Positions 32,295-64,000 of a DNA stretch of 64,000 nt are shown here, one piece after another. Made by a program: the position numbers and the translations under genes. Where the stretch lies: the NCBI GenBank assembly GCA_015680905.1, contig CM027377.1, forward strand, positions 13,230,501 through 13,294,500, written 5' to 3'. Within the stretch, counting starts at the first letter, position 1, and every line of letters starts with the position of its first letter. The DNA comes from Coptis chinensis. Its lineage: Eukaryota > Streptophyta > Magnoliopsida > Ranunculales > Ranunculaceae. The notes beneath the pieces are model-generated. The model made no database searches and was not told the DNA's origin. It worked only from the letters and a program-made list of their open reading frames with translations.

Positions 32295-33239
32295 TCCTTA
32301 GATATATATTATAATTATACTCTATTGGCTCTATTTTTCAAAGTTTTACAGAGTTTCCAATTTTTTGTAAACTCTAATACTAATTACGAAAAAAAAAAAA
32401 ATCAAAATCCTTAGATATATATTATAGTTATACTCCTCACCAATCTATTTTTTGGAACACTCACAGAGACTCCAGTTTTTTCCAAACTCTATTACTATTT
32501 ACTAATTACGAAAAAGTAGGATAGAAATAAAGAACCAATCCGATATAAATAAAAAACCAATCACATCTAGAGTTTCACAAAGTCTCCAAACCAAAAATGA
32601 TTTTCCTAAAACCCTTACACGACAAAGAATAGTTTCCACAATAATCTCAGATGAAGTTCAACATAACAAAGTTTCTTTATAGAAAATGACAATTAAACTA
32701 TGAAAAAACAAAGGAAAAAATAAATTGAGTTGCTTGAACATTTACTTTACGTTTGTTAACCACACATGCCGAGAGAAAAAAATATAAACTAATCATAAAA
32801 TAAGTAATAAGATGATGTACACCCAAAACAAATAAAATTGTATTGTGTGCACTACATATATGGGCCTAACAAATAAAGTTGGATCAATTTGATGTGTGAT
32901 ACACTGTGGGATTTAGACATTTAGTCATAATTAAGGATTTCAAAAACTACAATTTCGACCACAATAATTACGATATATTTCAATTAAATTTATGAATTTT
33001 ATAATTTCTAATTTTAGCGAAATAACGAGATTCAATTAAAACAGTTGTTGACTTAAATAAATTATATAACTATTTATTTAGTTAAAGTGAACGTTGGGCT
33101 TAAATAAATTATATACCAAACCAAAACAACTTACATGTGAAAAATTAAATTATACAAAAAATAACATCACAAAATATAAAATAGAAAATGAAAAAAAAAA
33201 TAACGGCAAACCAATAATGACAAATATTATAAAATATAT

Positions 33240-35690
33240 ATAATACTGCATGAAACGAACATCAAAGAACAATTAACGGGAAACATAAAACTAGATGCAA
33301 ATGCAAATGCATCGAACTAATCTCAACTAATATTTAATAGAAAATCGAAAATTGGATGCACATGCAAGCATTAAACTAATCTTAAAAATTAATTAATGAA
33401 CAATCGGAATATGGATACAACTGCATTAAATTAACCTCAAAGAATAATTAACGGAAAATCAAAACTTGGATGCAAATACATCAAACTAACATAAAAAAAA
33501 AATAATTGTCGGGAAATCGGAAACTGGATACAAATGCATTGAACTAACCCTCAGAGATTAAATTAAAAGGAAATCGGAAACTTGATGCAACTGTATTGAA
33601 CTAACCTAAAAAAAATTAACTATAAATGGGAAACAGGATGCAAATGCGTGAAACTAATCTTAAAAAATAATTAACATAAAATTAGAAACTGGATGCAACT
33701 ACACTGAACTAATTCCAACAAATAAATTGGATGCAAAACATTGAACTAACCTCAATAAATAATTAACGGAAAATCGAAAACTGGATGAAATTCATTGAAC
33801 TAACCTTAAACAATAATTAATGGGAAATCAGAAACTAGATGCAAATACAACCTCATCGAATAATAATGAGAAATCGGAAACTAGATGCAAATGTATTAAA
33901 CTAATCTTAAAAAATGATTAACGGGAAATCAGAAACTGGATACAAATGCATTGAACTGATCTTGAAGAACAATTAACAGGAAATTGGAAATTGGATGCAA
34001 ATGCATTGAACTAATTGCAAAGAATAATAAACAAGAAATTGGAAATTGGAAACTGGATGCAACTGTATTGAACTAACCTCAAAAAATAAATAACAGAAAA
34101 TCAAAAACTTGATGCAAATGCATTGAACTAATCTCAAAATATAGTTGTGTTATATGTTGTGGGAATGTCTCGATAAGTATAGTTTTGTATTTAAAACGGT
34201 GTTTATCTTATCTTTTTTCTTATGATTGGGAACACCTTGCTATTTAAGTAGCTTCAATATGAACTTCCTCTTATTATACAATCTCACATAACTTCAATCA
34301 AACTTCTATTATTAAATAACAAAATGAAGTTGAAGAGTTTTATCAATGGTGAGTTATTTTTTATTAATAGAGAGTACGTGGGGTTTTCATGTTATAAGAA
34401 ATTTGGATGAGTGATCAATACAGTATTTGTATATAATAGTTCTGCATATATAGTTGCATATATTTTTCAGAATAATTAATATGATAGGACCCGTTCATAG
34501 ATAATCTTTGAAGATCCCACATAGTGAGTCAGGTATAATTTAAAGAGTAATTAACAGAAAATCAGGAACTGGATAATCTTTGATGATCCCATATAGTAAA
34601 TCAAGCATAATTTATTTTTATGTCATGTTTGCAATTAAGGACACTACATATGGATTAGTAGAAAGTTGGTATTACAAACCATATTGGATAATTAAAAGGA
34701 AATCAAAACTGGATTCAAATACATTTAACCGGAGCTAAAAAGAGTAATTAACAAATCGGAAACTTTATGCATATACGATAAACTAAACTCAAAAAGTAAT
34801 TAACTAGAAATCGGAAACTACTGCAACTGTATTAAACTAACGTCAGATAATAACTAATAGGAAATTAGAAATTGGATGCAAATCATTGAAAAATATTTAA
34901 CGGGAAATCGGAAACGGTATGCAAAAATGCATCAAACAAACCTCAAATAATAATAAACGGAGAATTTGAAACTGGATGCAAATGCATTGAACTAACCTCA
35001 AAAAATAATTAACAGGAAATCAAAAACCGAATGCAACTTTATTGAACTAATCTCATAAAATAATTAGCGGAAAATCAAAAACTAGGTACAAATGCATTGA
35101 AATAACCTCAAAGAATAATTAACAAGAAATCAGAAATCGGATAAAATTGCATTGAACTAACCTCAAAGCATAAATAATCAGAAATCATAAACTAGATGTA
35201 GATATATTGAACTAACCTCAAAGAGTTATTAATAAGAAATTAGAATCTGGATGCAAATGTAATAAACTAATCTAAAGACTAATTAACAAAACATCGAAAA
35301 ATGGATGCAACTGCATTGAACTAACCTCAATGAATAATTAATGAGAAATCATAAATTTAATACAACTGCATTGAACAAACCTTAAAAAATAATTAACGAA
35401 AAATTGAAACTTACTGCAAATGCATTGAACTAACCTCAAAGAACAATTAACGGAAAATCAGAAATTAGATGCAACTACATTGAACTAACCTCAAGCAATA
35501 ATTAATGGAAAATCAGAAACTGGATGCAATTGCATTGAAATAAAAAATTGGATGCAATATCCTTGATGAATATTTAATAGAAAATCGGAAACTAGATTTA
35601 AATGCATTGAAATAACCTTAAAGAATAGTTAACTAGAAATCGGAAACCAGATATAACTGTATCGAACTATCCTCAAAGCATACGATAAAA
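33240..35690 (+). repeat. 55-bp tandem repeat, first block
   Basis: Degenerate copies of a 55-bp unit: GGATGCAAATGCATTGAACT, then AACCTCAAAGAATAATTAAC, then GGGAAATCGGAAACT. Spacing measured between successive ATTGAACT motifs at 34986, 35041 and 35096 is 55 bp. The block is interrupted at 34141-34530 by a non-repetitive stretch that also occurs in the second Helitron copy. Confidence 0.95.
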
Positions 35691-35887
35691 AAAATTCCAA
35701 ATCCTTAGATATATATTATAGTTATACTCTCACCAATCTATTTTTTGGGGCACTCACATAGACTCAATTTTTTTTTTTCTAAACTCTATTACTAATTACG
35801 AACAAGTAGGATATAAATAAAGAACCAATCCTATCTAAAGTTTCAAAGAGTCTCTAATTTTTCCTAAACAATATAGCTAATTAAAAT

Positions 35888-35888
<1 letters not shown>

Positions 35889-35965
<77 letters not shown>
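35889..35965. repeat. (AT)n microsatellite
   Basis: About 38 uninterrupted AT units inside the second long Helitron copy, absent from the equivalent place in the first copy. Confidence 0.97.
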
Positions 35966-35970
<5 letters not shown>

Positions 35971-36679
35971 AAAACTAAATTGCTAAAAAACAATAGTTTT
36001 AGCCAAAAACGATTTTCTTAAAACTCTTAAGCCACAAAGAATAGTTTTCACACTAATCTCATGTGAAGTTTAACATAATAAAATTCCTTTTTAGAAAATG
36101 ACAATGAAACTATGAAAGAACAAAGGAAAAAATAAATGGAGTTGCTTGAACATTTACTTTATGCATTTGTTAACCACACGTGAATGAGAAAAAAGGAAAA
36201 AAAAAATTAAACTAATCATAAAATAAGTAACAGTACGGGTGTACACCCAAAACAAATAAAATTGTATTATATGCAATATATATATAGGCCTAACAAATAA
36301 AGTTAGATCAATTTGATGTATCATCCACGGTGGGATTTAGACATTTAGTCATAGTTAAGAATTTCAAAAACTACAATTCCATCAACAATAATTACGACAT
36401 ATTCCAATTAAATTTTTGAATTTTATAATTTTCAATTTTAGCGTAATAATGAGATTCAATTAAAGTGGACGTTGACTTAAATAAATTATATAACTATTGA
36501 TTTAGTTAAAGTGGATGTTGGGCTTAAATAAATTATATACCAAACCAAACTAAAACAAATTACATGTGGAAAACTAAATTATACAAAAAATAACATCACA
36601 AAATATATAATAGAAAATGAAAAAAAATAACGGAAAACCAATAATGACAAATATTTTAAAATATATATAATACTGCATG

Positions 36680-39640
36680 AAACTAACGTCAAAGAACAAT
36701 TAACGGAAAATATAAAACTAGATATAAACGGACTAACCTCAAATAATATTTAACGGAAAATCAAAAATTGGATGCACATACAAGTATTAAACTAATCTTA
36801 AAAAGTAATTAATGGACAATCGAAATATGGATACAACTGCATTAAACTAATCTCAAAGAATAATTAACGGGAAATTAAAACTTGGATATAAATACATCGA
36901 ACTAACATCAAAAAATAATTGTCAGGAAATCGGAAACTGGATACAAATGCATTGAACTAACTCTCAGAGATTAAATTAATGGGAAATCGGAAAATGGATG
37001 CAACTGTATTGAACTAACGTAAAAAAAAAATTAACTATAAATTGGAAACAGGATGCAAATGCCTGAAACTAATCTTAAAAAATAATTAACGGGAAATCGG
37101 AAACCGGATGCAACTACACTGAACTAATTTTAAAAAATAAATTGAATGCAAATGCATTGAACTAACCTCAAGAAATAATTAACGACAAATCAAAAACTAG
37201 ATATGATGCAAATTCATTGAACTAACCTCAAACAATAATTAACCGAAAATCATAAAGTAGATGCAAATGCAACCTCATCAAATAATAAATGAGAAATCGG
37301 AAACTGGATGCAAATGTATTAAACTAATCTCAAAGAATGATTAACGGGAAATCGAAAACTGGTTGCAAATGCATTGAACTGGCCTCAAATAACAATTAAC
37401 AGGAAATTGGAAATTGGATGTAAATGCATTGAACTAACTGCAAAGAATAATTAACAAGAAATCGGAAACTGGATGCAAATGCATTGAACTAGCTAACCTC
37501 AAAAAATAAATAACATAAAATCAGAAACTGGATGCAAATACATTGAACTAACCTCAAAATATAGTTGTGTTATATGTTGTGGGAATGTCTCGATAAGTAT
37601 ATACAGTTTTGCATTTAAAACGGTGTTTATCTTATCTTTTTTCTTATGATTGGGAACACCTTGCTATTCGAGTAACTTCAATATGAACTTCGTCTTATTA
37701 GACAATCTCACAAACCTTCAATCAAACTTCTATTATTAAATAACAAAATGAAGTTGAAAGATTTTATCAATGGCGAGTTATTTTTTTTTTACTAGATATT
37801 ACGTGGGGGTTTCATGTTATAAGAAATTTGGATAAGTGATCAATACAATATTTATATATAATAGTTCTGCATATATAGTTGCATGCATTTTTCAGAATAA
37901 TTAATGTGACAGGACCCGTTCGTAGATAATCTTTGAAGATCCCACATAGTGAGTCAGGTGTAATTAAAAAAATAATTAACAGAAAATCGAGAAATGGATA
38001 ATCTTTGATGATCCCATATAGTAAATCAAGCATAATTTATTTTTATGTCATGTTTGCAAAGACACTACAGATGGATCAGTAGAAAGTTGATATTATACAC
38101 CACATTGGATAGTTAAAAGAAAATTGAAAAATTGGATTCAAATACATTGAACTGAGCTCAAAGAGTAATTAACGGAAAATCAGAAACTTTATGCAAATAC
38201 AATAAACGAAACTTAAAAAGTAATTAATTAGAAATCAGAAACTGACTGCAACTGCATTAAACTAACGTCAAAGAATAACTAATGGAAAATTAGAAATTGG
38301 ATGCAAATTCTTGAAAAATATTTAACGAGAAATCAGAAACAGTATGCAAAAATGCATCAAACAAATCTCAAATAATAATTAACAGGGAATCGGAAACTGG
38401 ATGCAAATTCATTGAATTAACCTAAAAAAATAATTAACAGGAAATCAAAAACTGAATGCAACTGCATTGAACTAACCTCATAGAATAATTGGCGGGAAAT
38501 CAAAAACTAGATACAAATGCATTGAAATAACCTCAAAGAATAGTTAACGGGAAATCAGAAACCGGGATGAAATTACATCGAACTAACCTCAAAGGATAAA
38601 TAATAAGAAATTATAAACTAGATGCAGATTTATTGAACTAACCTCAAAGAGTTATTAATGAGAAATTGGAAACTAGATGCAAATGTAATAAACTAATCTA
38701 AAGACTAATTAACGAAATATCGAAAAATGGATGCAACTACACTGAACTAACCTCAATGAATAATTAACGGGAAATCATAAATTTGATACAACTGCATTGA
38801 ACAAATAAACCTCAAAAAACTAATTAACAGGAGATCAAAAACTTGCCGTAAATGCATTGAACTAACCTCAAAGAACAATTAACGGGAAATCGAAAATTGG
38901 ATGCAACTGCATTGAACTAACCTCAAAGAATAATTAACGGAAAATCGGAAATTGAATGCAACTGCATTAAACTAAAATCATAGATTAACTAATAAGCCGA
39001 GAAATCAGAAATTGGATACAATATCTTTGATGAATATTTAACGAAAAATCGGGAACTAGATGCAAATGTATTGAAATAACCTCAAAGAATAGTTAATTGG
39101 AAATCGGAAACCGGATGTAACTACATCGAACTACCCTCAAAGCATAAATAACCAAAAATTGGAAGCTAGATGTGAACTAACCTCGAGAAATAATTAATGG
39201 GAAATCGAAACCTGTTTGCAGATGTATTGAACTAACCTCAAAAAGTAATTAACGGGAAATTGAAACATGGATGCAAATGCAATGAACTAATCTCAAAGAG
39301 TAATTAACGAAACATTGAAAACTAGATGCAACTGCACTGAATTAACCTTAATGAATAATTAACGAGAAATCAGAAACTTGATACAACTACATTGAATTAA
39401 CCTCAAAGAGTGATTAATGAAACAATGAAAACTAGATGCAATCAGATCTTGAATTAACCTTAATTAATAATTAACGGGAAATAAAAAATTGATACAATTA
39501 CATTGAATTAACCTCAAAGAATAATTAATGGGAAATCAAAAACTAGATGCAACTACATTGAACTAGCATCAAAGAATAATTAACATAAAATCGAAAACTT
39601 GATGCAAATGCATTGAACTAACCCCGAAACATAGTTGTAT
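36680..39640 (+). repeat. 55-bp tandem repeat, second block
   Basis: Same 55-bp unit as the first block, longer by about 15 units, interrupted at 37561-37970. It ends just before the third copy of the conserved 3' segment (39640-40002). Confidence 0.95.

Positions 39641-44504: not shown

Positions 44505-44584
<80 letters not shown>
44505..44584. repeat. (TA)n microsatellite, left side of Pack-element
   Basis: Forty TA units directly abutting the left end of the element at 44585. Confidence 0.97.
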
Positions 44585-44587
<3 letters not shown>

Positions 44588-45189
44588 ACAAAGCTAGGTA
44601 GGCAGCCAGAATTCAAAAACAACATCCAAACAAAGAATTCAAGCCGTTAGATCATAGGCGTCGGATCAAGATGAAAATGCGATATTTCCGAATCTGGTTT
44701 TACGTTCTTCTTTTTTACGAAGGGTTTGGGTTTGAAATTTCTAAACACCAAACAACAAACTACGATCATCAACAAACAAAAATTCAAAATCAAAACCACG
44801 AAATCATCAACAACAAAATCAAACCACCGAAAAACCCAAAATCAAACCCAAAATCATCAACAAAATCAAAACCACCCAAAACCCAAAATTCAAACCCAAA
44901 ACAAATCATCTGGGTGCTTGATTCTTAATTTATCTGGTAACAATTTATCGTTTTTAGTTCGATCTTGTGACACACTATTTCTGCTTCTTGTTATTTGTTT
45001 TTTTTTCAAGTGTATTTATTATATGCATTTGATGTAGATCTACATGATATTCGGATGGTTTAGCTAGTTTAAAATCGATGTAGATCTGGCTTGCCAAATA
45101 ATTTCAAGGTAATTTGTTTTTCCCAGAGTTAGTTTAACCCGGTTATAATTTGTTGGCGGGTTCTTGTACTTGAGAAGCATCATACATCA

Positions 45190-45580
45190 AAAATATCAGA
45201 TTTTCCTGATCTCCAGTCTTTGGTGACGTTTGAATTTCGAGGGGAGGCATTAAGTTCCCTGTGTGCACTTGGGAATATCCGAAAGGAGTATGCAAAGCTA
45301 ATTTCTTTATTGAATGTGAGTGCTTAGCTAATTTCTTTACTCATCTTGAAACTGTGGGATTGTAGTTTGGTTTTGACAGCCTTGTTATATTTCAGGCGTA
45401 TGCCCACATTGCCAAAGGAGTTCGATTAGTTTGTAACAACAATAACCGGAAAGAACGCAAAAAACTGTGGGTACTTCCGAACACAAGGAAGCGGCTCCAT
45501 TAAAGACAACATCATAACTGTATTTGGCATGAATACATTCTCGTGCTTAGAGACCTTGAGTGTTTGCATATCGAGAAAGT
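45190..45580 (+). pseudogene. Captured PMS1 (MutL homologue) fragment
   Basis: Exon A (about 45192-45315) reads [20 protein letters not shown], then LSSLCALGN, then directly [17 protein letters not shown] intron 45316-45395 follows. Exon B starts AYAHIAKGVRLVCNN and continues in another frame as GSGSIKDNIITVFGMNTFS. This matches the GHKL ATPase domain of PMS1, including the FRGEAL motif. The segment between LCALG and NIRKEY in the family (some 50 residues) is missing. PMS1 pairs with MLH1 in mismatch repair. The fragment lacks the ATP-binding N-terminus and the endonuclease domain and cannot work. Confidence 0.85.
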
Positions 45581-47526
45581 CGTATGGGAGCTGTATGGTT
45601 GTACTTTTGCATATCGAAAATCTATGTCTCGTTTGGTAGAAGCGGGACACCTCAAGGAAGACTGCCCCAAAGAAGAAAGACGAGTAAAGGTATCTCAATC
45701 GAGAAAACGAAGGCAGTGGTGAAGGCGGTAGTGCACCTGCTATAGAAGGAGCCGGGATCAATAGCGGATGAAGGAGCCGGTCGGGCGTGGCATAGATGTA
45801 GCAGCAGCATGGGTAACAGATGGTAGTCTGGTTTGGTGCCAAATCACTTTTCTAGTGGGTAATCTATTAATCAAGTAAACAGCGTACCCTTGAGTATTCT
45901 CTTTGGTGCTTAGAGCCATCACAGATTCATTAGTTGCTTGTGCCCATGTTGTTCTTTGTTGTCTTTGGATTGGCGAATTTTTCTTTGTGTCTCTCATTAA
46001 GCTACCAATTAGTATAATCAGATGGTTCATTGATCAGATTCCTTGTTGATCTTGAAGATGATTGTCAAATAATTCTTTGTTGTTTCACTCATTTTTTTGT
46101 TGTTTCACTCATTTTTTTGCATTGGTGAATTTTGGAGTGTGGGATTTCTTGCATTGGTGAATTTTGGAGTATCGTTCTTGTAAACTTTCAGCAGATTGGT
46201 TGTTAATGTTGAGGATTTTTTTTTCTGACATTTCTGTTTCTTTTCTTGCTTTAGTGTACCATTTTCTTTTGTTCAAATCGTGGATTGCCAATCTGTTAAT
46301 GTGTATTCCCAGTTTGAATTGCTTTGATGGTGGATTGATATGTGTCAAGCTGCAGCTAAATCTTGGATTACTAGATTTGAGACAAATTTAAACCCAATAA
46401 TGTAAGGCGTGAGAAATAGGCGCTTAGAGCCATCACAGATTCATTGAAGTTCGAAATAAACTCTGACAGAAATAACCAAAATTCGATATACAACAAAAAC
46501 CAATATGGGCAGTTCGAAATTTTCTCTCACAGAACTTGTTATGATCAGTTTCTAGTACCAATATGCAAAAACCAATAGCTTCTCATATGCAGTTCGAAAC
46601 CAATATGCTATGTTACGACGAGAACTTGTTCGTCGAGGTTCTAGTCTCTATATTCTCGTGAACTCCATTTGATCGGTTTTAGCTTATTGAAATTTGAAAT
46701 GGGCTTGGACCTATATCTCAAGACTAAAAATAATGATCTATGCAGATACAAAACTTGCACCAAAACTTGCAAAGATACAAACACATCATACAAAACTCAG
46801 ACGGCCCCACTTTGAACTGGGCCTTTAACAATTACATCGAGTTTGAAAAGGCATAAGGATTTAAGCTAGCCTTTAAAGAGCAGGACAATTCCTTTTTTGG
46901 CCTAGCCAAGAAGACCCAAGTCCATCAAAGTTGAAGCAACCAAAAACTAAGCTAGGGCCTAACATATAAGAAAATTGAAAAATGAGAAAATTGAAGATAT
47001 CAAAAGACCATCCATCTTTAGTACAACCAATCACAATTTTGTACGGACCATCCATCTATGAAGCAACCACCGGTTTTGTACACGGACCATCCATCTTTCT
47101 AACATATAAGAAAATTGAAAAATCTAAACTTCATCCACAAACCAATCACAGCGGTAATAACTAATTGAACTAAACAAAAAGCGGACTTCTTAGTACAACA
47201 TCTCTAAAGGAGTAGTCTTGAGCTGCCATTTAGTACTGACCAATCACTAACTTTGCTTTTAGCCTTTCCATGCCAAGCACCTTTATCCAACCACTAAAAA
47301 CAATACAGTTACCCCAACAAAACTAAGCACCTTTATCCCCAATTCATCATCATTCCTAACTACAACAACACGAGAAAATAGCAATAAGAATAATAACAAT
47401 ACCAATAATAACAAAAATAATAATAACGATAATGAAAACGATATAGCGATAACAAAATCCATGTATAATATCATCATAAACACACTAAAAGCTACATTAA
47501 GTATGGACGGGGTGGATTTGTAACTT
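45581..47526. other. Unassigned interior of the Pack-element
   Basis: A 25-bp direct repeat, GCTTAGAGCCATCACAGATT and following, occurs at 45909 and 46420. Several CCATCCATCT motifs lie at 47008-47096. Other captured fragments may exist here, but I could not identify any. Confidence 0.4.
45840..45905 (-). mobile_element. Possible Ty1/copia integrase fossil
   Basis: A short minus-strand stretch reading YAVYLINRLPTRKV resembles the copia integrase segment. Too short to be sure; a broken fossil if real, nested inside the Pack-element. Confidence 0.3.
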
Positions 47527-48199
47527 ACACTTCCTCAAGCCGCTTTAAGCTTGGATATCGAAAAGGAATATCTCCATAGAGCAAATTCCCGGATAAATCC
47601 TGATTAACCCCACATATAGGGATCCCAAGTAATAGAAGGCGTTAGGCAAATGTAATGAATACAAAATTCTAATTTTCCTTTTTATTGCGAATTTAAAATT
47701 TTCAAACCACCCGAGGTGTTGAGGGATTCTGAGTTCTTAGATCACCACGGTTGCCTATTTCATCGGAATTTGCCCGATCAAGTGATTCCCCTTCAAATCA
47801 CTGCACACCAAAAACAACAATAATCAAACTTCACACTTTGCTACAACTTTAAAATGATACAAGGTTAGGGGTTACATACATGGAATGTAAGTTCCTCGGA
47901 TCACCAATGGAAGGAGAAATTTAGCCACCCAAATTCAAATTTGACATGATTCCTACATCGGAGAAAAAATAACCAACATTCTTCTTACACCAAGGGGCAA
48001 AAAAGACCTAGAGCGAGAAACAAGTACGAGAAGTTAATAAGAATGGATAAAACAAATCTTACGATGAAACAACAGAGAAGATGTGGGTATCACAAGAAAC
48101 ACCACGCCATGAGCGGTGATATCCATTGTGCACATCATCCCATCCGTGGGGCGTTTACTACATTACTAAATGAAGCTTTTATAGACATCAGAGACTTCC
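47527..48199 (-). pseudogene. Captured ERECTA-family receptor kinase fragment
   Basis: Four successive N-terminal exons with introns on the minus strand. Exon 1 (48063-48199) reads LMSIKASFSNVVNA and, in another frame, DVHNGYHRSWRGVSCD. Exon 2 (47880-47952) reads SNLNLGG, stop, ISPSIGDPRNLHS. Exon 3 (about 47735-47798) reads DLKGNHLIGQIP then DEIGNRGDL in another frame. Exon 4 (about 47527-47604) reads DLSGNLLYGDIPF then LKRLEE. These line up in order with the ERECTA ectodomain (GEISPAIGDLRNLQ, GQIPDEIGN, LLYGDIPF), the peptide-sensing part of a plasma-membrane kinase that controls stomata and organ shape. The kinase domain and most LRRs are absent. Stops and frame changes exclude function. 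Confidence 0.87.
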
Positions 48200-48647
48200 C
48201 TGCACCAACAACAAAACTTGATCAAACACCAACATAGAAAGTGAACTACCACAAAAAAACCATTCATGGGTAGAAAAAAACAAAAAATTGCCATATTTAG
48301 AAAAGGGTTGTAGTCTTCAACACAGTGTGTTTATGATGATGAATTGGATCGCCCATGAAATTTGGGTTTTTGGGTTTTTGGGTTTTGAATTTTGGGTTTG
48401 ATTTTGGTGGTTTTGATTTTGTTGATGATTTGTTGTTTTTATGAATTTTCAAAACCCTCGTGATCGTAGTTTGTTGTTTGATGGGAGGAAATTTGGAAAC
48501 CCTCGTATTTTGTGAGGTAAAATATCGTATTTTGTGAAACAAATTCGAAATATCACATTTTCATCTTGATCGATCGGTTATGATCCAACGGGCTTGAATT
48601 CTTTGTTTGGATCTTTGTTTTGAATTCTCATGTCTACCTAGCCTGCC

Positions 48648-48649
<2 letters not shown>

Positions 48650-48742
<93 letters not shown>
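48650..48742. repeat. (TA)n microsatellite shared by two elements
   Basis: About 46 TA/AT units between the right end of the Pack-element and another terminal-like sequence starting at 48743. Confidence 0.97.
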
Positions 48743-48746
<4 letters not shown>

Positions 48747-49621
48747 TTGTCTAGGGTGCCACTCTTAGAGTGCCACCCTTATCTCACTCTTCATTAGAGC
48801 CGTCCGATCGAGCCCTCTAGATCTCAAGATCTAATTCACCAAATTTACCGATATTTACCGATATTTCGATATTTCATCCTCTTCTCTAAAAAAAAAAAAA
48901 AAAAAAACCGATCTTTACCAAAGAGTTCAAACCGATCTAACCAAAAATTAAGACCAAGAGACCGATCTAACCAAAAAAAGAGAGGGATCGACTAATCTGA
49001 GCGATCTACAAAAACAACCATATATTGCTTTGTCAGATTTGATTTCCATCTCTTCTTTTGCTGCGGTATGTGAACTTACTGGTCTAATTCACCACATCTA
49101 ATTTAGATCTGTTTTCCGTTTATGTTGTTAGGTTCTAAAAAGGTTATTTTTTGTTGCAGCGGTATATTTGGTGGCTCAGTACGCTCGCGTTGAAATCAAA
49201 AGGTTAGAAGCGGCATGATACTTCCTTTTTCTGATAGCATTTCATATATCTTTAACTTATATTAAACTGAACCTTATTCGTAATAAAATTAAACCAGTAA
49301 TATTCTTTTTTGTTTTAAGAATGTAAATTTACTTATGAAGTGGATGTGATTTAACTTGCATCTATGTCACATGACTAGAAGCAACAACTAATAACTGATA
49401 GAAATATTGGATTCGAGCATTTTGCTTACTGTATTATTTGGAAGATCCAAATGCAATATGACTAGAAGCAACAACTAACCTATCCAATATCCTTGAATAC
49501 TCGACACCACCCCTATTTGTATTAGCTTTAGAGTCGCTTTTAAGCTGGCTAATTGTCGCAGCTACTCTCATGCTTAGCGCTTCAAGGAGCTAAATGTGTT
49601 TAATTAGGTGTTAGCATATTT
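48743..49621 (+). mobile_element. Terminal-like sequence of another (TA)n-inserted element
   Basis: Starts GGGTTTGTCTAGGGTGCCAC exactly at the edge of the (TA)n tract and has an internal inverted motif (GTGCCACTCTTAGAGTGCCA). This is the form of some plant MULE ends that sit in (TA)n. Its partner end is not in the window, so it may be the outer left end of the large composite that follows. An A-run lies at 48889-48906. Confidence 0.4.
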
Positions 49622-50500
49622 GATGAACTCGGCCGAAGTTCGGTGAATGTCGAGTTCTAAATTACGTGGAGTTCGTGAATTCTGTCGAGTTTTTGAATTC
49701 TGTCGAGTTTTTGAACTCTCTCGGAGAGTTCTAAATGTTCGGGAAGTCGGCTTCGGGAGTTTTGAACTCTGTCGAGTTCTAACTCTGTCGAGTTCTAAAT
49801 TCTCGAGTCGAGTTTTGAACTCTGTCGAGTTTTGAACTCTGTCGAGTTCTAAATTTGAATTCCGAGTTTTGAACTCTGCCGAGTTTTGAATTCTCGAGTT
49901 TTGAACTGTCGAGTTTTTGAATTCTGTCGAGTTCTAAATTCTGTCGAGTTCAAAACACTGTCATGAGTTTTGAACTCGTCCGTCGAGTTCGGTGAATTCA
50001 ATGAGTTCTAAATTACGTCGAGTTCGTGAATTCTCGTCGAGTTTTGAATTAAATCGAGTTTTGAACTCTGTCCGAGTTCTAAATTAAATCGAGTTCGGTG
50101 AACTTCTGTCGAGTTTTGAACTCGTCGAGTTTTGAACTCGTCGAGTTCTAAGTTCTAAATTTGATTGAGTTCAGTGAATTTTGAACTTTTTGAACTCGGA
50201 GTTCGATGAATTGTCGAGTTCTAAATTCTGTCGAGTTCGTTGAATTAATGTCTGTCGAGTTTTGAATTATGTCAGAGTTTTGAACTCTATCAGAGTTCTG
50301 AATTCTGTCAGAGTTTTGAATTCTGTCAGAGTTTTGAACTCTGACAGAGTTCGGTGAAGTAGCATATTTGGTTAACTCTGTCAGAGTTTCGATGTTTAAG
50401 TTATTTACACTGTTTATGTACATTGGGATTTTTGACTGTTTAAGTTATTTATATTTTTAATTTTTTCGATTTATAGAAATGGAGACATAGACATCAATGT
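49622..50500 (+). repeat. Left arm: 18-bp minisatellite plus inverted-repeat core
   Basis: Degenerate copies of an 18-bp unit (TCTGTCAGAGTTTTGAAC and variants with TTCTAAAT or TTCGGTGAA). The last 150 bases (50340-50500) are inverted at 62140-62290: both share GTTTATGTACATTGGGATTT, ATATTTTTAATTTTTTCGA and an ATGGAG start with ACATCAAT. Much of the left part has lost bases in the CTGTCAGA core. Confidence 0.9.
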
Positions 50501-51406
50501 TATGTTTATCCAAGTTCAAAATAAATAAATCATTAAATCAAACAATGAAGTTATGAACTTATTGTCTCTCCTGTTGATATCACTAGATTTTTATTTGAGG
50601 CCATATCGACCGAGATCTTTTGCTTATTGATTCAAAATAAATATATAGCTCTGTTTCAGGTAACTGTTCTATCTTTCTATCTTTTTTTTTATATATATAT
50701 AATGTTATGTTTGATTCAATTCTTTTGAATTCTAGACACCCATTTTGTACTTTCCCTGTTGATGAATTACATGACAAGATACAAAAAGAGTAAACACAGT
50801 TTAGCTAAAAATAGATGTTGAGTTAAGTTACTATTAGAGAGAATAAATCATGGTTATTTTCATTATTGATTTTGAATTAATAATTTAGCGTAACGAAGAA
50901 GAAGTTATCGCGAGAGGATTTTGCATTGTAAACTCCTCTACTACTAAGACAAATTTTAAAATGAAAGTATATTATGAATGCTAACCAATTTGCTGCATTT
51001 TATTTTCTTCCTTTGCTTTTGGATTTTTTGTTTTGTTAGGTGAAAGAGAAAGAAAAATGTTAAGGTTTGTAACGCTTCATCACTTTCGTCACTAATGCTA
51101 TACTCATCTTCACATTATCTATTATAAATTGATAATTATGGCTAAGCCTTAACTCTGCCATCCAACGACATTTCGTTTCAATATTAAGAATACATCCTCC
51201 AATCGAATTCCATACATAGGACCCAGTTAGTAGTTGGTACTACTCAACAAACTACACAATCCTACCGTGGAAGGAGTCGTGAGAAACAATGATTAGTTAA
51301 AATCAAGGTATTAAGATGATTGATATTTTTTTGGTAAAGAAGTAGATGGATAAGTTTAACTGCATGTTTAAGCCCATACAATTAATAATAATACAATTCT
51401 TAGGAC
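50501..51406. other. AT-rich interior
   Basis: No gene recognised. It contains a short (TA) tract at 50690-50700 and lies between two 18-bp arrays. Confidence 0.4.
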
Positions 51407-51510
51407 TTTGTTGAGGTTTCTGTCAGAGTTCGGTGAACTCTGTCAGAGTTTTGAACTCTGTCAGAGTTTTAAATTCTGTCAGAGTTCTAAATTCTGTCAG
51501 AGTTCCAATG
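51407..51510 (+). repeat. Small well-preserved 18-bp array
   Basis: Five nearly perfect units of TCTGTCAGAGTT plus TCGGTGAAC, TTGAAC, TTAAAT or CTAAAT. It shows the intact core that is eroded in the larger arms. Confidence 0.95.
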
Positions 51511-53704
51511 CCTTTCCTTTAGCGTCCGCGGTTCGCTGTTGGACAGAAGAGTATAATTCATTCTTTAATCTTTTCTATGATTCATTCATTATATTACTGA
51601 TCATGTAAACGGAGACCTTTCTAAGGTTCCCTAGATCTTATCCCACCAAGGTAAAGGTGTTCAGATCAATGCCATCGCCGGGTTCGATCAGTGGTAGCTG
51701 GGGTCATTTATCCTATATATGCAAATGGAGGGAGGATCTTTACCCTTCCCCTTCGGCAGCCCATTCCTTCCTAAAGTCAGGAATAGCGGGATGAGGAAAT
51801 AGTATGTAAATATAGCAACAGGAAGACTAAGGGTGGTAGAACCTACTCCTTTCTTTCTTCTCTTATGATATAATGATCTTGCACGTATCTCACCGGCGGG
51901 TTTAAAAAAACACGCGAATTGACTCAAGTAAAAATAGCAATCGCTATACAAGAATCTGTTTCTACTTTAGGAGTCTTTGTGGCATAAAAAAAGAAGCTTG
52001 GGAAGAGAGGGAAGGGACTCGATGCGAGGCAATAGGCAAAGAAGGCATAAGAGGGAGCAAACGGAGGCTTTGAAGCCGGCCCTACACCTAGAAAACTACG
52101 GATGGGATCTCAACCATATGCAAACCAACCTAATATAGATTCCGAGAAGAAACTACACTAGCCCAAGCAAACGAGGCTTAGAAAACAATAGGGGCGAGTA
52201 AAGGGGGCCATTACAAGCAAACGGAGTCGAGTCGGTGTGGAACCTATTAAGAAGCTAATGGCGTCTTGAGTTTACTAGGTTGGGAGATAAATAAGTAGGC
52301 TTCAAAGCCATAGTTGGTTAAGAGCCAACCCGACAAACCGGCTAGAGGGGCTTAAAGGAAGTTTGCTTTTCAGTCTCTTGACCAGATCCAATTCGTATGG
52401 GGAATGAACCTTTAGGGGGTCGGGGGTAGGAAGGATATCGTGTTTTTGATGCGGATGATTTTCTAGTTGAATATGCATTTCATTCCGTAGAGGACTAGAC
52501 TATCGATTCCGTTGAGCCAGCCTTAGAGAGAAGGGGCCTAGTGGTGTGAGCTTGGGCTGTGGAGCTTGAAGTAGGCGGGGGTCCGCCTTCCATTGCTTCT
52601 TCAGAGTGCACTTTCTCATTTCGAAGGCTTGAAGTGGCCTACGCTAGTCTGGAGGAGGAAACTACGGATCTTTGCGGAATCGGAATGATAACGGTGGTCC
52701 GAGAAAGAAGCATGAGCCCGCAGAGCTATCGGCTTAGGCTTGCTCACAATCCGTTAGTTTTGAGGAGTAGTTTTACTTCTAGTTTTGAGATACCTTGGCA
52801 CCGAAGCATAGGACTTGTGAAGCTCATGGTCTGGCTTCCTGCATCCGACTATACTCACTTTCGAGTCTTCCGCCATGTAGTAATACCGATCCTGGACCGG
52901 ACTTCATTTCCTTGGGCGGTCTAGTTCCCAACCCGAATCTGAAAGTGCCAAATTAGACTCCCTCATCTGCAAGTCAAAGTGTCTCCAATTCAATTGCAAA
53001 CTGGAGTACTAAAAGGAAGGACCTACCTACCGGCTGCTATAGGATAGGTCGCTAGCTCAAAAAAAGCAAAGTGACCTTAAGCTTAGCGGATAGGCAAAAG
53101 GACTTACTATGTGTGAGGCTACTTTGAGATCTTAAGCGAGGAGCTAGTTCAATAGTTTGAATAGCTTCTAATCACGCTGAGAAGTAGTGGAGTGGCAAGC
53201 AACAGCGAGAATGAGGGCGTGTGGTGGGGGTCGGTTAAAGTAAGCAACAAGGCATGATGAGATCTGAACCCCTACCTTGGCGTCACGAGAATGGGCTTTT
53301 GCATTTTGTCTTCGGTTGAGGCCTATCCATCCTATGCCCGTATGTTTTATCAATCGAACTTCAAACTCAACCTCGGTCGAGGGCCTTCTTCGCCCGAAAT
53401 TTGTTTGATTCATTCCGCTTTGCTATTCATTCTAAACCCAACCCGGCTACAATCGTAAAAACCACGGCATAGCAAAGCAACTGCTAGCTACTCCTTCGAT
53501 TAGGAGAGAGCTCGACATTACCTCCCACCCGGGCGTGAGGGGACCAAACAGCGATAAGACCCGATAAGCTCATTCGAAGCAAGCCCTAATTAATTGAATT
53601 ATTTGATTAATTCAATCAATCGATCTCACCTTTGTTGATATCGTCTTTCTTAGGGATACCCGAAGCAAGCAAGGCAAGGACTCTACTAAGCACTTTATGC
53701 AAGT
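51511..53704. other. Mitochondrion-like DNA, part 1
   Basis: The character changes sharply: near-even base composition, no AT-rich runs, many AAGCAAGC/GAAGG/CTTAGGC phrases and no coding. This is the texture of plant mitochondrial intergenic DNA (for example GAGCTCGACATTACCTCCCA near 53509). I recognise no mitochondrial gene with certainty. A NUMT caught in the element is the best guess. Confidence 0.4.
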
Positions 53705-54080
53705 AGATCACGAGTTCGTGAATGCATCCGGAGTTTTGAATTACCGAGTTCTAAATTACATCGGCCGAAGTTAGGTGAACTTCGTCCGGTTTTAAATTGT
53801 CGAGTTTTGAACTTTGTCGAAGTTCTAAATTCATCGAGTTTAATTACAATCGAGTTTTGAATCTGTCGAGTTTTGAACTCTGTCGAGTTTTGAACTCTGT
53901 CGAAGTTCTAAATTCTTAGAAGTTGGTGAATTACGTAGAAGTTTTGAACTTCTGTCGAGTTTTAAATTCCGTCGAGTTCGGTGAATTAATCCGAGTTTTT
54001 GAACTCATGTCGGGTTCGTGAATTAACATATTGGTGAACTTCTGTCGAGTTTTGAACTCTATTAGAGTTTTGAGCTAAAG
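53705..54080 (+). repeat. Third 18-bp array
   Basis: Degenerate copies of the same unit in plus orientation, splitting the mitochondrion-like DNA in two. Confidence 0.9.
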
Positions 54081-56034
54081 TGGATTGATCCGTTCGGCGT
54101 GGCTAAGCTAAAAAGAAAAAAGTCCTATATATTCTATCTTTGTATTGATGGCTCATTTTGGCTCACTTCCTCGATATGGGATCCGAAAATGTTAAATTAC
54201 TCAATTTCTTTGAGAGGTAGCGGGGTTAGTTTGTATAAGCAATTCGACCTCTTATAGGGGATGGGGTTTAAAAGCGACTTCTCTAGAGGGCAGCCCGAAG
54301 CAAGATTCTAGGGGGCTTAAGTGGGGATTTTGGTCTAGCAATTAGAGATAGAGAAAAGTTGAGCCAACCAAGGCTTTGGTAAGAAACCGATGTATGCTTA
54401 ACACACCCAAGTCAAGGGGGCTACGAGTGGGGATTTCTAGGAGATTCAAGCTGTGGTGACTGGCTTTAGTCGGCATAAGAACAAACAACTAAATGGGTAT
54501 CCTTAGCCTTTTGTTGTTAGCCGGTGGCACAGAGTCTTCTCACGGGGCATCTCTTCTTTATAGCTTTATAGATTATGAATTGATTCAGAACACACAAGAA
54601 AAGCGTTGATGGAACCATGCAAACGGTGCTCATTAACTCACTAAGCGTCCCAATCAAATCATTCCAAAGTACTTCCCTTATGCCAGAGTGTCCGAACAAG
54701 CTCTTGGTGAAAAAGGCTGGCGTGTAGTCCGAACGAAGATTATCCGTCGTAGTTATTTCCTTTTCTTGAGAAAGCTCTGCAGAGTAAGGGAATGCTTTCG
54801 TGTAGTGGAGCACTTGCACTAAGCTTTTGAGAATATCTTCCGATAAACCGGCGAATGGAGTCCGGCGTCTTGAGTGATAAGCACCGCTAAACCTCGGTTT
54901 AGTGCCTAATTTCTTCCATAGCACCCTTTATTAGAATTAGAGCCTTGGTGGTGTATTGATGGGACATAATGCTCCCCTTTTCGTCATAAAGCGTGGTTTC
55001 TCCATAATAATGATGATCAAATCCGCGATCATGGGATAGCCGGTTCTAATTCTATGTCGCGGATTAAATTGAAATTAAGACCGAAGCTTATTTAGTTCCG
55101 GATGATGTAGAGCCAATTCGAATTTATTTCCTTAGGTTCCTAGCTCCTCTCTCGGGTGGGTTGGAAAACTTTCATATCAAAGGGGTTAGCTCTGATCGAG
55201 CGAAGGTTAGGTTTTTCAAAGTGGTAGGCTTAGAGCCACAATAAAGCTAGAAAAGTCTACCATGAAAAGTAGTCTTTGCCAAAGCAAAAAAGGTAAATGC
55301 TTATTTCATCTTTCTTGAGATGAAATGCAAAATGGTAGTCTTTGGGGTCCAACTTCTTTCTTTTTTTGTCCGTATTGGACTTGCCGACATATCCAAAGCG
55401 TAGAAGTGAGTCGGAATCAAGCTCTTGTCGTTACGTCCATTCGAAGCGATGCTATAATCTTAAGAGAGAGGGCCCCCCTCTTATAATAATAGTAGATCAT
55501 TTTTTCGCATGCTATCCATTTGAATTGTTTTCTCCTCCCTTTCCAGTGATCATTTTGATCATTTTGCATTATAGTCCTCCTCAACTAAACAAAAAACACC
55601 TAAGATTAACGAAGGAAGAAGGTCTATCCCTTCAATCCATTTTGAAAAGCCAAGCAAGCTCGGGTAAATGGCCTAGAAATACATGCACACCTTAGATATA
55701 GATTGGCATGCACACACGCTATTTCGTTATTTGTTTTTCACGTTGGTATTGCAACAATTTGAATTAGTTGAATGTCTTATTTTTAACTCCTATTTATTTT
55801 GTAGCAATGCCTCGAACAAAGAATCTGAATGTGAAGAATGCAAAAAAAAGTGTTTTCCACGGGTGCTAAGAAGTTGTTAGGTGGGGGAGTAGTAGTTGGG
55901 GAGGGAGAGAGAAAAAGAGAAAGAACAACAACTACCTCGGCATCAGTCCGAGGGGGATCGGAAAGCGGATGATCCCCAGAATGTAGTAAAGTGGTGTAGA
56001 GTTAGGAAATCAAAAGAGAAGAAAGCAAACAATT
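54081..56034. other. Mitochondrion-like DNA, part 2
   Basis: Same texture as part 1. It has a 135-codon open stretch on the minus strand (54517-54924, containing GAYHSRRRTPFAGLSEDILK) and a 117-codon one on the plus strand (55342-55695), neither recognised. Such orphan ORFs are frequent in plant mitochondrial DNA. The last 150 bases may be leader of the PMD gene. Confidence 0.4.
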
Positions 56035-58260
56035 ATGAGTGATGTAGATTTAGATGTAGATGTAGATGTAGATTTAGATTTAGATTTAGATGAAGATGAA
56101 GATGTAGATGTAGATGATGTAAATATGGATCGTGGGAAGAGTGTAGCTGTAGGTGATGATGAAGAAGATGACGAAGGTGTTGATGACGAGGAGGATGAGG
56201 AGGGGCGGAGGATGAGGAGGAGGAGGAGGATGATGGCGAGGAAGTCCCCAGAAGTCCACAGCCACTGTACCTCCGGTGAATATTGTGAGAAAGTCCAACA
56301 ATGACTTGGAGTTCGGAGAGAGGTGTTTATGGAGGTGGCCTCGTGTGTCACATCTATTGTATGACTATCTGCAGTGCCGTGAGCTTCCTTGTTGATGTTT
56401 GGGAGGGGCAGGTAATATTATCATATAGTGTCTATTAGTATTTAAATTTTGTATTCTGAAACTTGTGCATACATTAATACTAAGTTTTTTGTTGTTTTAG
56501 GCGGGCCCGAGGGGTGTTGAAGTGCCATGGGCACCTCAACAAGTTGGTACAATGGGATATCGAGGAGAGAGTGTTGAATCGCTTCTACTTTTCGCGTGGA
56601 GCTTCAAAGGACCGGGCTTATGTGCTCACGGTCTTAGGTGTATCTGAGCATCGGGGATCACCGTTGGTCTCTGGCGTTTGTGGAGAGGTGGCATCGAGAG
56701 ACCAACACGTTTTCATATGCCGTGGGGGCGAGATGACAATCCGTTGGGCGATGTTTCCCAACTCTTAGGAGTTCGATCGAGGCAAAGCGTTGGCAGGGGA
56801 CGATTTGACCTTGGAAACGAACAAAAAGACTTCTCCACAAAATCTTGGCATACCCATGGATAAGATAGATCTTGGAGATGAAATCCAATAAGTTCACTTC
56901 CAAAGTTAGGATGGATTTCTTGATGAAGCGATTTCTTTGGGAAGGTAAGAGATGAAGATTTTACGTGATGAAAATGGGGTTGTTGTGAAGAAGCGTCAAC
57001 CCAAAAGAGGCGGTTCTTTGTGAGAGCTTATCATTTATTTTTCTTTGGATGTACGCCTTTACCGAAACCGCACTGAACGGCTAGTTCCGTTTGTTATCCG
57101 AGGCTTTCGAAATTTGCGAGATCGAGACTACTGGCGTGGGGTGCGACCTTCTTGGCTTACTTATGCGGGGGTCTTGGGACTGCCACAAGTGCCAAGGTGA
57201 AGGGGTGTTTTTGAGGGCTATTTCACTCTCCCTATTGGTATTAGTTTTTTGTTTTCTTTTCAATGTCAATTTTATCTATCTATTACAATATTAACTTCGG
57301 TGTCTATATTAATGTAGGCATGGATTTATGAGTACTTCCCGTGTTAGGGCCATACCCAAATGAGGACTATCATTTGAGCATGTCCTGCTAATAGGTACTC
57401 GATTACTCAATCTTTTTATGCTAGCACAACACCGGCATTGAAGTATACCGAGCCACCATTGATAATATGACTTGTACCGATGTAAAGTATTTTTGTATGT
57501 AAATAGTTTTATTTATTAATTAATATTATTAGTATGTGATTAATGATTAATTTCCTCGATCATATGCTATTTGAGGGTTGAATGGTATCCCTATGTTGAA
57601 GTCCGAGCTACTACGGCGGTGGATGAAATAGCATTTTCGAGGGATTTATATGCTTTCTTGATAATGTCGAAAGCGATTACAATGTTCTGCGAGGGTTGTC
57701 GTCGGTTAGGTCATATGCGGTTTGTACCCTCGGATCCCCAAAACCAAAGAGCTCGACGAACTACTTCGGGCCTTGGGTATGATGTAAAATTTAATATTGC
57801 GTCTTCCCTTTGGAGTAATTGGCGAGAATCACTTGATTCAACTTCTGAACAACGGACCCATTCCGTCTTATCCATGGGAGTGTGTTAGTAGAACATTCCG
57901 TGAGTTGGGGATTGTTAGTAGAAACAATAGTCATAAACAATAGTCGTAGAATGATAAACCACGATCATCTTAGTCACTACTCCCCTACTGAGTCTTCCAT
58001 ATCATAATCCGGTGAGTTAATATCTTACAGCGTTAATTTTTGTTTTGTTTTGTTTTGTTTTGGTATTTTATAAATGTAAATGTATATACTAATGTAGTTT
58101 TGTGTTTTAATTTTGACAGCACCCGTCGTCGATGAAATTTCGCTTTGCTCAATCAAGGCCCGCAATTGGGTGGGGCTGCGATTCGGAGGATGCACAAAAC
58201 GAGTTCATGGAGGCATACAATTTGACCAGTGCAAGTTCATTGGCGGACGATATAAATTGA
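56035..58260 (+). pseudogene. Plant mobile domain (PMD/MAIN-like) gene, decayed
   Basis: Exon 1 (56035-56411) starts MSDVDLDVDVDVDLDLD and encodes an acidic tail built from GATGTA/GATTTA repeats. Intron 56412-56500 is GT-AG. Exon 2 reads LKCHGHLNKLVQWDIEERVL, VERWHRETNTF-like text across a frame change, then HMPWG, LGDVSQLLGV and GNEQKDF. Later pieces are EYFPC, VEWYPYVEVRATTAVDEIAF and CEGCRRLGHMRFVPSD. The order fits the plant mobile domain shared by MAIN/MAIL proteins and by plant transposons, where it sits beside a transposase. The role of transposon PMDs is unknown; host MAIN/MAIL1 act in silencing and genome stability. At least two frame changes occur near 56650-56720, and others follow. 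Confidence 0.8.
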
Positions 58261-60129
58261 AGGAGCATAGGATTTAGGTATGTTGAGTTTGGTTAGTTTA
58301 GGGTTTAGGGTTTAGTGGCCATATATCTTGTTTTTTGGTGTGTTGAGCATAGGATTGCAGCTTGTGGCCATATATCTTGTTTTTTGTGTGTCCACCACCA
58401 CTTTTGAGTTTGAAATAGACACCGGCTGTTCAATGGCATCAACAATAGTGTTTTATGCTTAAAAGGAGGAACTTAGCACCTTTAAGCACATTAGTTGGAT
58501 CTTTTCTTAGTAGACATATAACGACAAAGTTTGAGGACTTGCTAGGGTCTTAGAAAACATAGCTAGTTTGGCAAATTGTCATTGCAGTCACTTAAATATG
58601 ATAGTGTTAAGTCTTGATTAGGTCATGTAAATGGTGTTTCTCATGATGCGACAATTACTTAATGTATTTGGGGTCTAGAGTGTAGTTAGTCTACTCTCAA
58701 TGTGAAACCGCCACTTCTCATGAGCGGTAATTTCCCAAACTATGAGTTTGATATTTTGGACAATGGCATATATATGAAAATCTTAGAAATCATGATTTTG
58801 CATTTGAAATTTGAATTTTATGTTATCTTTGTTTGTAGCTCGAAATGGAGGGCGGTGATGAAATTGATCGCGATGTTGCACAGGCTGGGGTGCTCGCGAC
58901 GTGTATAATAGCATGATGAAAGTTGTAAGGTGGTAGGGAAAAGGTTGTGTGATAGAGGTCTTTGTCGAAGTCATTATTTTCGTTTTTGTCAAAGATTATC
59001 TTTTCGTAAATTACCAAAGAAAAGGGGTTAAGACATTTGTAACCCGATACCTCCATATGGTTTTATGTTCTTGATCAATATGTAAAATATGATAATCCGA
59101 CTTTTACTTCAGTTTTGTGGACTCATGTTTTACTTTGAAATAATGGAAGTACAATTCTTCCTTACATTTTGTAATCCCGTCGATTCGATGGTCTTATAAC
59201 TGAATTATTTCTCACGTGGATGTATGTTTCCATATATGCTTTCTGCCCACAATCTGCGGGTGATTAAAGCGTGAGTGGCAGTGATGTATAGGGATTACGG
59301 GGCATTATCAACCTTGTTCATGTGATGAATTCATTAATAAAAGATTGGCATCAAGATCGATTGATGCAAAGTCGAGGGGGTGGAAACGAATCATGAGGAG
59401 AAGGCAAGATTTTTACCTAAAGCAAAGCTTTGCCTCCGTGATTCTCCATTTCTCCTTGAGCCATACTTCTTTTTCTACAATATCAATGAGATTAGAACTC
59501 AGTCTAATTAAACTCCCCAAATGTAACCTAAACCAAAGAATATTAAAATTTGAAAATAAAAAGGAGAAAGAAGTTATCAAAAAAAAACCGGGCTCATATC
59601 ATTATGATGTTTCATATCTAGAGCCTAACAGACAACATTAGATACTATCCAATGGACATAATGATGCAATAGAACACAACCCTCGACCTGAGTTCAACTT
59701 AACAACACTTGATAAAACTCTAACAAGGTGCCATATCTAAACCACTATTAACAAGTCCGGACATCAATGAAGTCCATGACGCCACAGATAAAAATATCAT
59801 TAGAACTAGTGAACATTTAGAATCAAAGAGTTTTGAATAAATCTATACTTACAATCCATGTTACACGATATTTTTTTCCTGACAATTTCTCGAAGTCATG
59901 GTTAGCAATCATCCACATCCGTGACACTTTCTTCCCGAATTGTTTAGGGCTATCTCTTTGGGGGATTTATCTATCCGCTTTCTTCTTCCCCTCCCTTTTG
60001 TTTGAGAAATGTTGATTCAAAATCAATAGCTGAAATAAAGACCGAATTAAAATAAATATTTATATCAAATTAAACAATCGAATTAAACACTAAATTTATA
60101 TCAAATTAAACATTCAAATAAAAAACTCG
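58261..60129. other. Spacer between PMD gene and transposase
   Basis: AT-rich. No gene recognised; the two genes converge here. GGTTTAGGGTTTAGGGTTTA-like bases near 58303 are too short to be a telomeric relic. Confidence 0.45.
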
Positions 60130-63905: not shown

Positions 63906-64000
63906 AATTGTCGCCAGCCTTTTAAACGAGGGTATTAATCATAACTATAATCATAGCAACCTAAATTAAATCAAAATTCAAGGTTTTATGGTATAATGAC

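Follow-up and report, generated by a model that had tools for sequence, protein, structure and literature searches.

Background and related elements

Pack-MULEs have been described in rice, maize, Arabidopsis and tomato (PMC3310237, PMC13317346). How these elements gather pieces of several genes has so far been argued mostly from end products. The element described here, about 4 kb long, occupies positions 44585-48649 of a 64,000-nucleotide stretch of Coptis chinensis DNA (the window) and resembles the Pack-MULEs of those accounts in its long inverted ends, its intron-keeping host fragments with donors elsewhere, and its several copies. It differs from them in that it unites fragments of at least three genes, apparently by the joining of two elements of its family, and in that it sits in TA microsatellites. 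Fusion elements of the type "AB" are known among Pack-TYPE elements, for example Os-Pack-Mariner cluster 217, and the route proposed for them is that neighbouring insertions are re-mobilised together while the inner ends are lost by deletion or mutation (PMC8903248). As in that case, two elements of one family are found here both alone and joined; whereas the fusions described there hold both elements whole and end to end, plus extra DNA, the window element combines the left half of one with the right half of the other at a single interior joint, and belongs to the MULE superfamily.

Sitting in TA microsatellites also relates the element to a second group. SaTar elements of guayule and rice are non-autonomous MULEs flanked by (TA)n and arranged end to end without nesting (PMC5907723); similarly, the next element in the window starts right after a TA run, at 48743. 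SaTars measure only 0.4-1.7 kb, however, and neither "gene fragment" nor "gene capture" is a term used in the available text of PMC5907723. In the case of MuTAnT of Medicago truncatula, a TA-targeting MULE with a Jittery-like transposase (PMC4486113), the end mask GGGGTTTGCTAGAACA resembles by eye the window's GGGGCAGGCTAGGTAGACA, but the elements are mostly 200-300 bp long and are described, in the available text, without captured host genes. TAFT and Micron are considered as presented in the SaTar and MuTAnT papers (PMC5907723, PMC4486113). Within the open-access literature searched, titles and the beginnings of abstracts gave no Pack-MULE capture of ERECTA, and no Mutator-like capture of a PMS1 gene fragment was found. 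The element is of a known kind and well resolved, and its value lies in detail and in surviving intermediates: because the donors, a transposase-bearing lineage, an ERL-only lineage, a deletion intermediate and the joined product are all present in one genome, the succession of steps can be followed, and the record of assembly is unusually complete.

Structure and termini of the element

Positions 44593-44892 and the reverse complement of 48356-48642 share 233 of 263 aligned bases, in addition to gaps, and blastn aligns the inverted ends at 72.8% identity over 309 columns, gaps included (E 1e-36). A chance inverted repeat is excluded by the alignment score of 223, compared with a maximum of 38 in 200 shuffles. 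The sequence-only reading of this DNA had set the borders at 44585 and 48649 and the inverted ends at about 300 bp; the borders are exact, (TA)n runs abutting both, and the shuffle test and blastn bear out the ends. A target site duplication (8-11 bp in Pack-MULEs, 9-10 bp in MULEs of TA microsatellites) is indiscernible because all five full-length copies of the joined type (lineage C, below) abut TA runs. The element lacks a transposase, and its homology to a transposase-bearing copy, L021, is confined to 44593-46815 and the ends. Ten short pieces of the element gave no match to Pfam (0/10), and Rfam gave none over the window at gathering score.

Table 1. Features of the element in window coordinates, with its full-length copies elsewhere in the genome.
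Feature	Position	Strand	Remarks
Left (TA)n microsatellite	44505..44584	.	80 bp
Left terminal inverted repeat	44585..44892	+	starts GGGACAAAGCTAGGTAGG
PMS1 fragment: exon end, intron (part deleted in window copy), exon with 171-bp deletion, intron, next exon	45093..45601	+	borders by eye, from alignment to donor L042
AAT at joint of 171-bp deletion	45274..45276	+	AAT at both borders in donor
Kept PMS1 intron	45316..45395	+	GT...AG
Zinc-knuckle (CCHC) coding stretch after PMS1	45602..45700	+	LCLGCGRAGHLKEDCPQEERR in other copies; bounds approximate; zf-CCHC E 0.0012, below Pfam cut-off
27-bp direct repeat, copy 1	45905..45931	+	left border of third fragment
Third host fragment, presumed TAXIMIN-like peptide gene	45929..46385	+	matched 45929-46281 and 46298-46385; donor-like gene in L052
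27-bp direct repeat, copy 2	46419..46445	+	96%; right of third fragment
Joint, lineage-A part left, lineage-B part right	46811..46815	.	little or no homology (GA, perhaps TTTGA)
ERL1-like fragment, from intron upstream of first captured exon to intron after fourth	47467..48329	-	borders approximate; donor L040
ERL exon 4 of four captured	47529..47599	-	
ERL exon 3 of four captured	47729..47800	-	lower bound approximate
ERL exon 2 of four captured	47880..47952	-	
ERL exon 1 of four captured	48063..48199	-	
Right terminal inverted repeat	48356..48649	-	outer end GGGGCAGGCTAGGTAGACA
Right (TA)n microsatellite	48650..48742	.	93 bp, common to next element
Full-length lineage-C copies besides window	L009 C1:30.5M; L010 C2:9.9M; L011 C9:72.8M; L012 C3:72.6M		

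Captured host gene fragments and their donors

Compared with human PMS2 by phmmer (8e-11), the conceptual PMS1 fragment aligns as two collinear pieces separated by a jump. Its donor is an intact gene of the same genome, L042 (C2:63615500-63624500), of which the N-terminal 344 residues match PMS2 at 9.9e-99 and to which the window aligns in two pieces at 91.3% and 93.0%. The jump had been described earlier as a junction skipping about 50 residues; it is real, but its size is 57 codons (171 bp), and since the donor has these codons inside one exon, it is a deletion within that exon and not exon skipping. The joined fragment had no match in Pfam, and a 45-residue piece of its second exon had no PMS match in the PDB. 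A second, partial PMS1-like locus, L043 (C2:63734500-63743500), lies about 119 kb from the intact donor.

The best matches of the four joined ERL exons, in which stops and frame breaks were written as X, are ERL1 (1e-60) and ERL2 (7.5e-54), ahead of the next family, GSO1 (4e-40). A plain likeness to LRR kinases is rejected by the lead of ERL1 and ERL2, which exceeds 40 bits; against Pfam, the same exons gave only two LRR matches, both sub-threshold. The donor, L040 (C3:124418000-124426000), contains leucine-rich-repeat exons and a kinase, and the window is 92% identical to it. Alignments to both donors continue through the introns, so that the fragments derive from genomic DNA, and a processed (mRNA) origin is dismissed. 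Where searches with unjoined or short pieces returned no match, this is expected, as the fragments have decayed. The sequence-only reading, a Pack-MULE-like element carrying genomic PMS1 and ERECTA-family pieces in opposite orientations, is supported in these respects: PMS1 lies on the plus strand, four ERECTA-like exons lie on the minus strand, introns are kept in both pieces, and the search it had proposed for the parent loci finds intact donors for both in this genome, the fragments belonging to PMS1 and ERL and not to non-homologous proteins.

That reading had recognized two host fragments only, and had missed a third as well as the zinc-knuckle stretch. The third fragment is 84% identical over 388 columns and 98% over 88 to L052 (C9:52214500-52218000), with similar further matches at C6:75.85M, C9:52.34M and C6:71.77M. 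L052 encodes a small cysteine-rich protein, without a Pfam model, which we take to be TAXIMIN-like. Conserved cysteines and prolines are described in PMC4526920 and are only loosely comparable with the L052 protein. In all, the window element holds remnants of three or more host genes, all of them broken.

Related copies and the interior joint

The window's own genome (935.6 Mb, 116 contigs; the window is C1:13230501-13294500) was searched with parts of the element, and 20 + 15 stretches around matches were taken for comparison. The left end has at least 45 matches (40 of 101 candidates scored), many of them in opposite pairs about 4 kb apart. The whole element recurs at four further loci (Table 1) with 89-92% identity over about 4.17 kb, while a fifth, L037 (C2:40.8M), is truncated on the left and keeps 46594-48649. 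Among the matches listed (40 of 122 candidates scored), the right end occurs at 92% identity or above only in the window and these five loci, which together form lineage C. Several copies with the same ends thus exist, and the case in which no other copy would share them does not hold. A further family member of about 4.2 kb, L015 (C8:73385500-73391300), has flanks that are inverted copies of each other over at least the 60 bp shown per side.

Two other lineages each contain one side of the element. In lineage A (L021; L017 with L044; in part L013 and L041), homology to the window element begins at the left end and reaches 46815 at most, so that the PMS1 and presumed TAXIMIN-like pieces are present without ERL. 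In lineage B (L014, L018, L038, L039 and L047), homology sets in at 46811 and continues to the right, and PMS1 is missing. With 46530-47460 as the query, at least six loci match across 46811-46815, at least two A loci stop at 46815 and at least five B loci start at 46811, these counts being lower bounds (40 of 69 candidates scored). The joint sequences, CCACTTTGACAGCC in A, GAGTTTCGAACTGGGCC in B and CCCACTTTGAACTGGGCC in C, have only GA in common, or TTTGA with one change, and the same C joint is found at six loci, which lie on several chromosomes and have differing flanks. The 171-bp PMS1 deletion is also present in the lineage-A copy on C6 (L044, continuing L017), whereas L021 and L041 have the donor sequence at that site. 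The earlier proposal of at least two acquisition events is right in that there was more than one; the pieces were not, however, picked up successively by the window element, since either fragment is found without the other in a related lineage, the window element combining the two.

Lineage C forms one clade in the PMS1 tree (99/98, 5 rows), in which the bootstrap had not settled and most inner branches are weak, and also in the ERL tree (100/99, 6 rows). The tree of ends is less simple. The outer right ends of C make up a separate long-branch clade (length 0.18, support 100/100), from which both sampled B right ends, L014 and L018, are excluded, so that the B parent, or at least its end, is an unsampled member; the C left ends do not group firmly with lineage A (61/46 and 54/0). 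Lineage B does have the inner part of the C right end, but simple A + B parentage is not borne out for the outer end, the next-best matches of which, among those listed, reach 74-80%. Several of these adjoin transposase matches, for example C3:110182037 beside C3:110182482-110184468. Other loci, including such transposase-adjoining ones, hold 46453-46806 and 46863-47453 in inverted order, so that the family has exchanged modules more than once and other routes are possible.

Transposase and TA microsatellites

The fullest of the lineage-A copies compared, L021, shares the left half and the ends with the window element and carries a transposase of the Mutator-like superfamily: two of five pieces matched Pfam, FAR1 at 3e-9 (above cut-off) and MULE at 4.6e-5 (below cut-off). 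This transposase is broken over three frames, and its DNA has at least 40 relatives at 85% identity or above, itself included (40 of 40 scored, from 867 candidates). Lineage A can therefore be regarded as a transposase-type element with host pieces, of which C has lost the transposase half.

A TA run of at least 8 lies within 40 bp at 16 of 18 ends with an exact CTAGGTA, compared with 2.06% of random 40-mers; of all 35 fuzzy end matches, many of them spurious, 19 have one. The ends of L016 and L017 are without a TA run. Insertion in (TA)n is the trait of SaTar, MuTAnT, TAFT and Micron, and the element, when compared with these named families by their descriptions, belongs with the MULEs that sit in TA microsatellites, a placement absent from the earlier reading. 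L009 and L010 lie on different chromosomes, yet their right flanks show 80% identity over 649 columns, as though both copies sat in one and the same TA run next to a repeat.

Proposed history of the element

We conclude, with a probability of roughly 0.8, that the element belongs to a FAR1-type Mutator-like family, sits in TA microsatellites as a non-autonomous Pack-MULE, and was made stepwise by the joining of A and B-like elements. A transposase-type element (lineage A) would have acquired genomic PMS1 and presumed TAXIMIN-like pieces, after which one A sublineage would have lost 171 bp of the PMS1 exon; lineage B, another element, would have acquired a genomic ERL1-like piece. At 46811-46815, an A element would then have contributed its left half and a B-like element its right half to one joined element, the joint being formed either by a deletion fusing two elements in one TA run or by template switching during repair; joining of the left half only would explain why the transposase half of A is absent from C. 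The joined element would have spread to at least six loci, probably mobilised in trans by related FAR1/MULE transposases. Its present state is most likely that of a silenced gene relic without an intact frame.

One tentative extension of this stepwise history, which we consider possible but doubtful, is that TA microsatellites served as assembly sites: MULEs, whether related or not, would be drawn end to end into one TA run, A and B may in this way have become neighbours, a deletion between their interiors may have taken away the inner ends and the transposase half, and the multi-gene product may then have moved as a single unit by its outer ends. If true, targeting of microsatellites would account for the accumulation of exons from unrelated genes in Pack-MULEs.

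A single ancestor that captured PMS1, TAXIMIN-like and ERL pieces in turn, with A and B each losing one side later, would fit the facts that the end sequences of A, B and C are all of one family and that modules recur in several arrangements. It is nevertheless improbable: A copies keep 57 codons that are absent from every C copy, so that C cannot be the ancestor of A, and had the two sides been lost independently, there would be no reason to expect A loci to end, and B loci to begin, at one shared point, 46811-46815, as they do.

We give equally little credence to a regulatory or domesticated element, in which convergent transcripts from both ends would yield dsRNA and siRNA against the PMS1, ERL1-like and TAXIMIN-like genes. 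The host pieces do point towards the interior of the element, PMS1 and the TAXIMIN-like one from the left end and ERL from the right, and the window shares perfect 24-base positions with the donors (139 for PMS1, 118 for ERL, 179 for the TAXIMIN-like gene); recent origin alone accounts for these, however, while the frames are broken and the copies diverge. Captured sequences in maize are treated as siRNA reservoirs in a 2026 review (PMC13317346), and cross-acting siRNA from the element is possible in terms of its sequence. The antisense or chimeric transcripts proposed in the sequence-only reading, with effects on mismatch repair or stomatal patterning genes, would likewise be no more than conceivable.

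Copy differences and assembly quality

Differences private to one of the five full-length C copies concentrate in particular contexts: they affect 30% of CAG/CTG (111/370) and 34% of CCG/CGG (61/180), compared with 3.2% of TAG/CTA (17/530), 6.5% of CAA/TTG and 11.7% of GTC/GAC. Transitions are more frequent at CG (6.8%) and CHG (6.1%) than at CHH (1.1%), an excess of the kind left by deamination. Deamination does not account, however, for the many changes of A to G in CAG and of T to C in CTG, and within CAG the A-to-G products (CGG 17 and CGA 9 of 230) outnumber those of deamination (TAG 6, CAA 6). In the ERL fragment, CG/CHG differences out of 71 number 0 in the donor, 14-19 in the five full C copies, 8-12 in B copies and 1 in L037; the contrast is weak in the PMS1 fragment (1-11 of 59) and modest over the whole element (2.4-9.6% vs 1.2-4.3%). 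Because the differences concentrate at CG/CHG and are partly unlike deamination, some frameshifts may be assembly errors, and we infer base-calling error at methylated CHG as their cause. Nanopore consensus is reported to suffer from unfamiliar modifications (PMC10687267). Frame breaks in the repeats of this assembly may thus be technical, a caution for whoever would argue from them that a sequence has decayed or can still code, and errors of this sort might serve as a mark of methylated repeats. An artefact is a credible source of many of the small indels, but that the joint or the frame breaks as such arose in assembly is extremely improbable, and for the structure not credible, given the same joint at six differently located loci.

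Neighbouring DNA

A second, different MULE-like element extends from 48743 to 64000, where it runs off the window, and starts with GGGTTTGTCTAGGGTGCC directly after the TA run. It contains FAR1/MULE-like transposase remnants at 59869-62074, with 74.9% DNA identity to L021, and, near 56.7 kb, a plant-mobile-domain match that is weak and below cut-off (0.0016). A GAGTT(C/T)(A/T)AAACTCTGTCAGAG-like unit forms long arrays, inverted in orientation, at 49624-50392 and 62142-63860; small variants are numerous there at CTGTCAG/CTGACAG and possibly reflect the same base-calling pattern. Between about 51500 and 55500, inside this second element, the DNA resembles by eye that of a plant organelle (mitochondrial). 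To the left of the Pack-MULE, 32591-39640 contains a 3.1-kb direct duplication of diverged tandem units at 87% identity (32591-35696 and 36003-39160).
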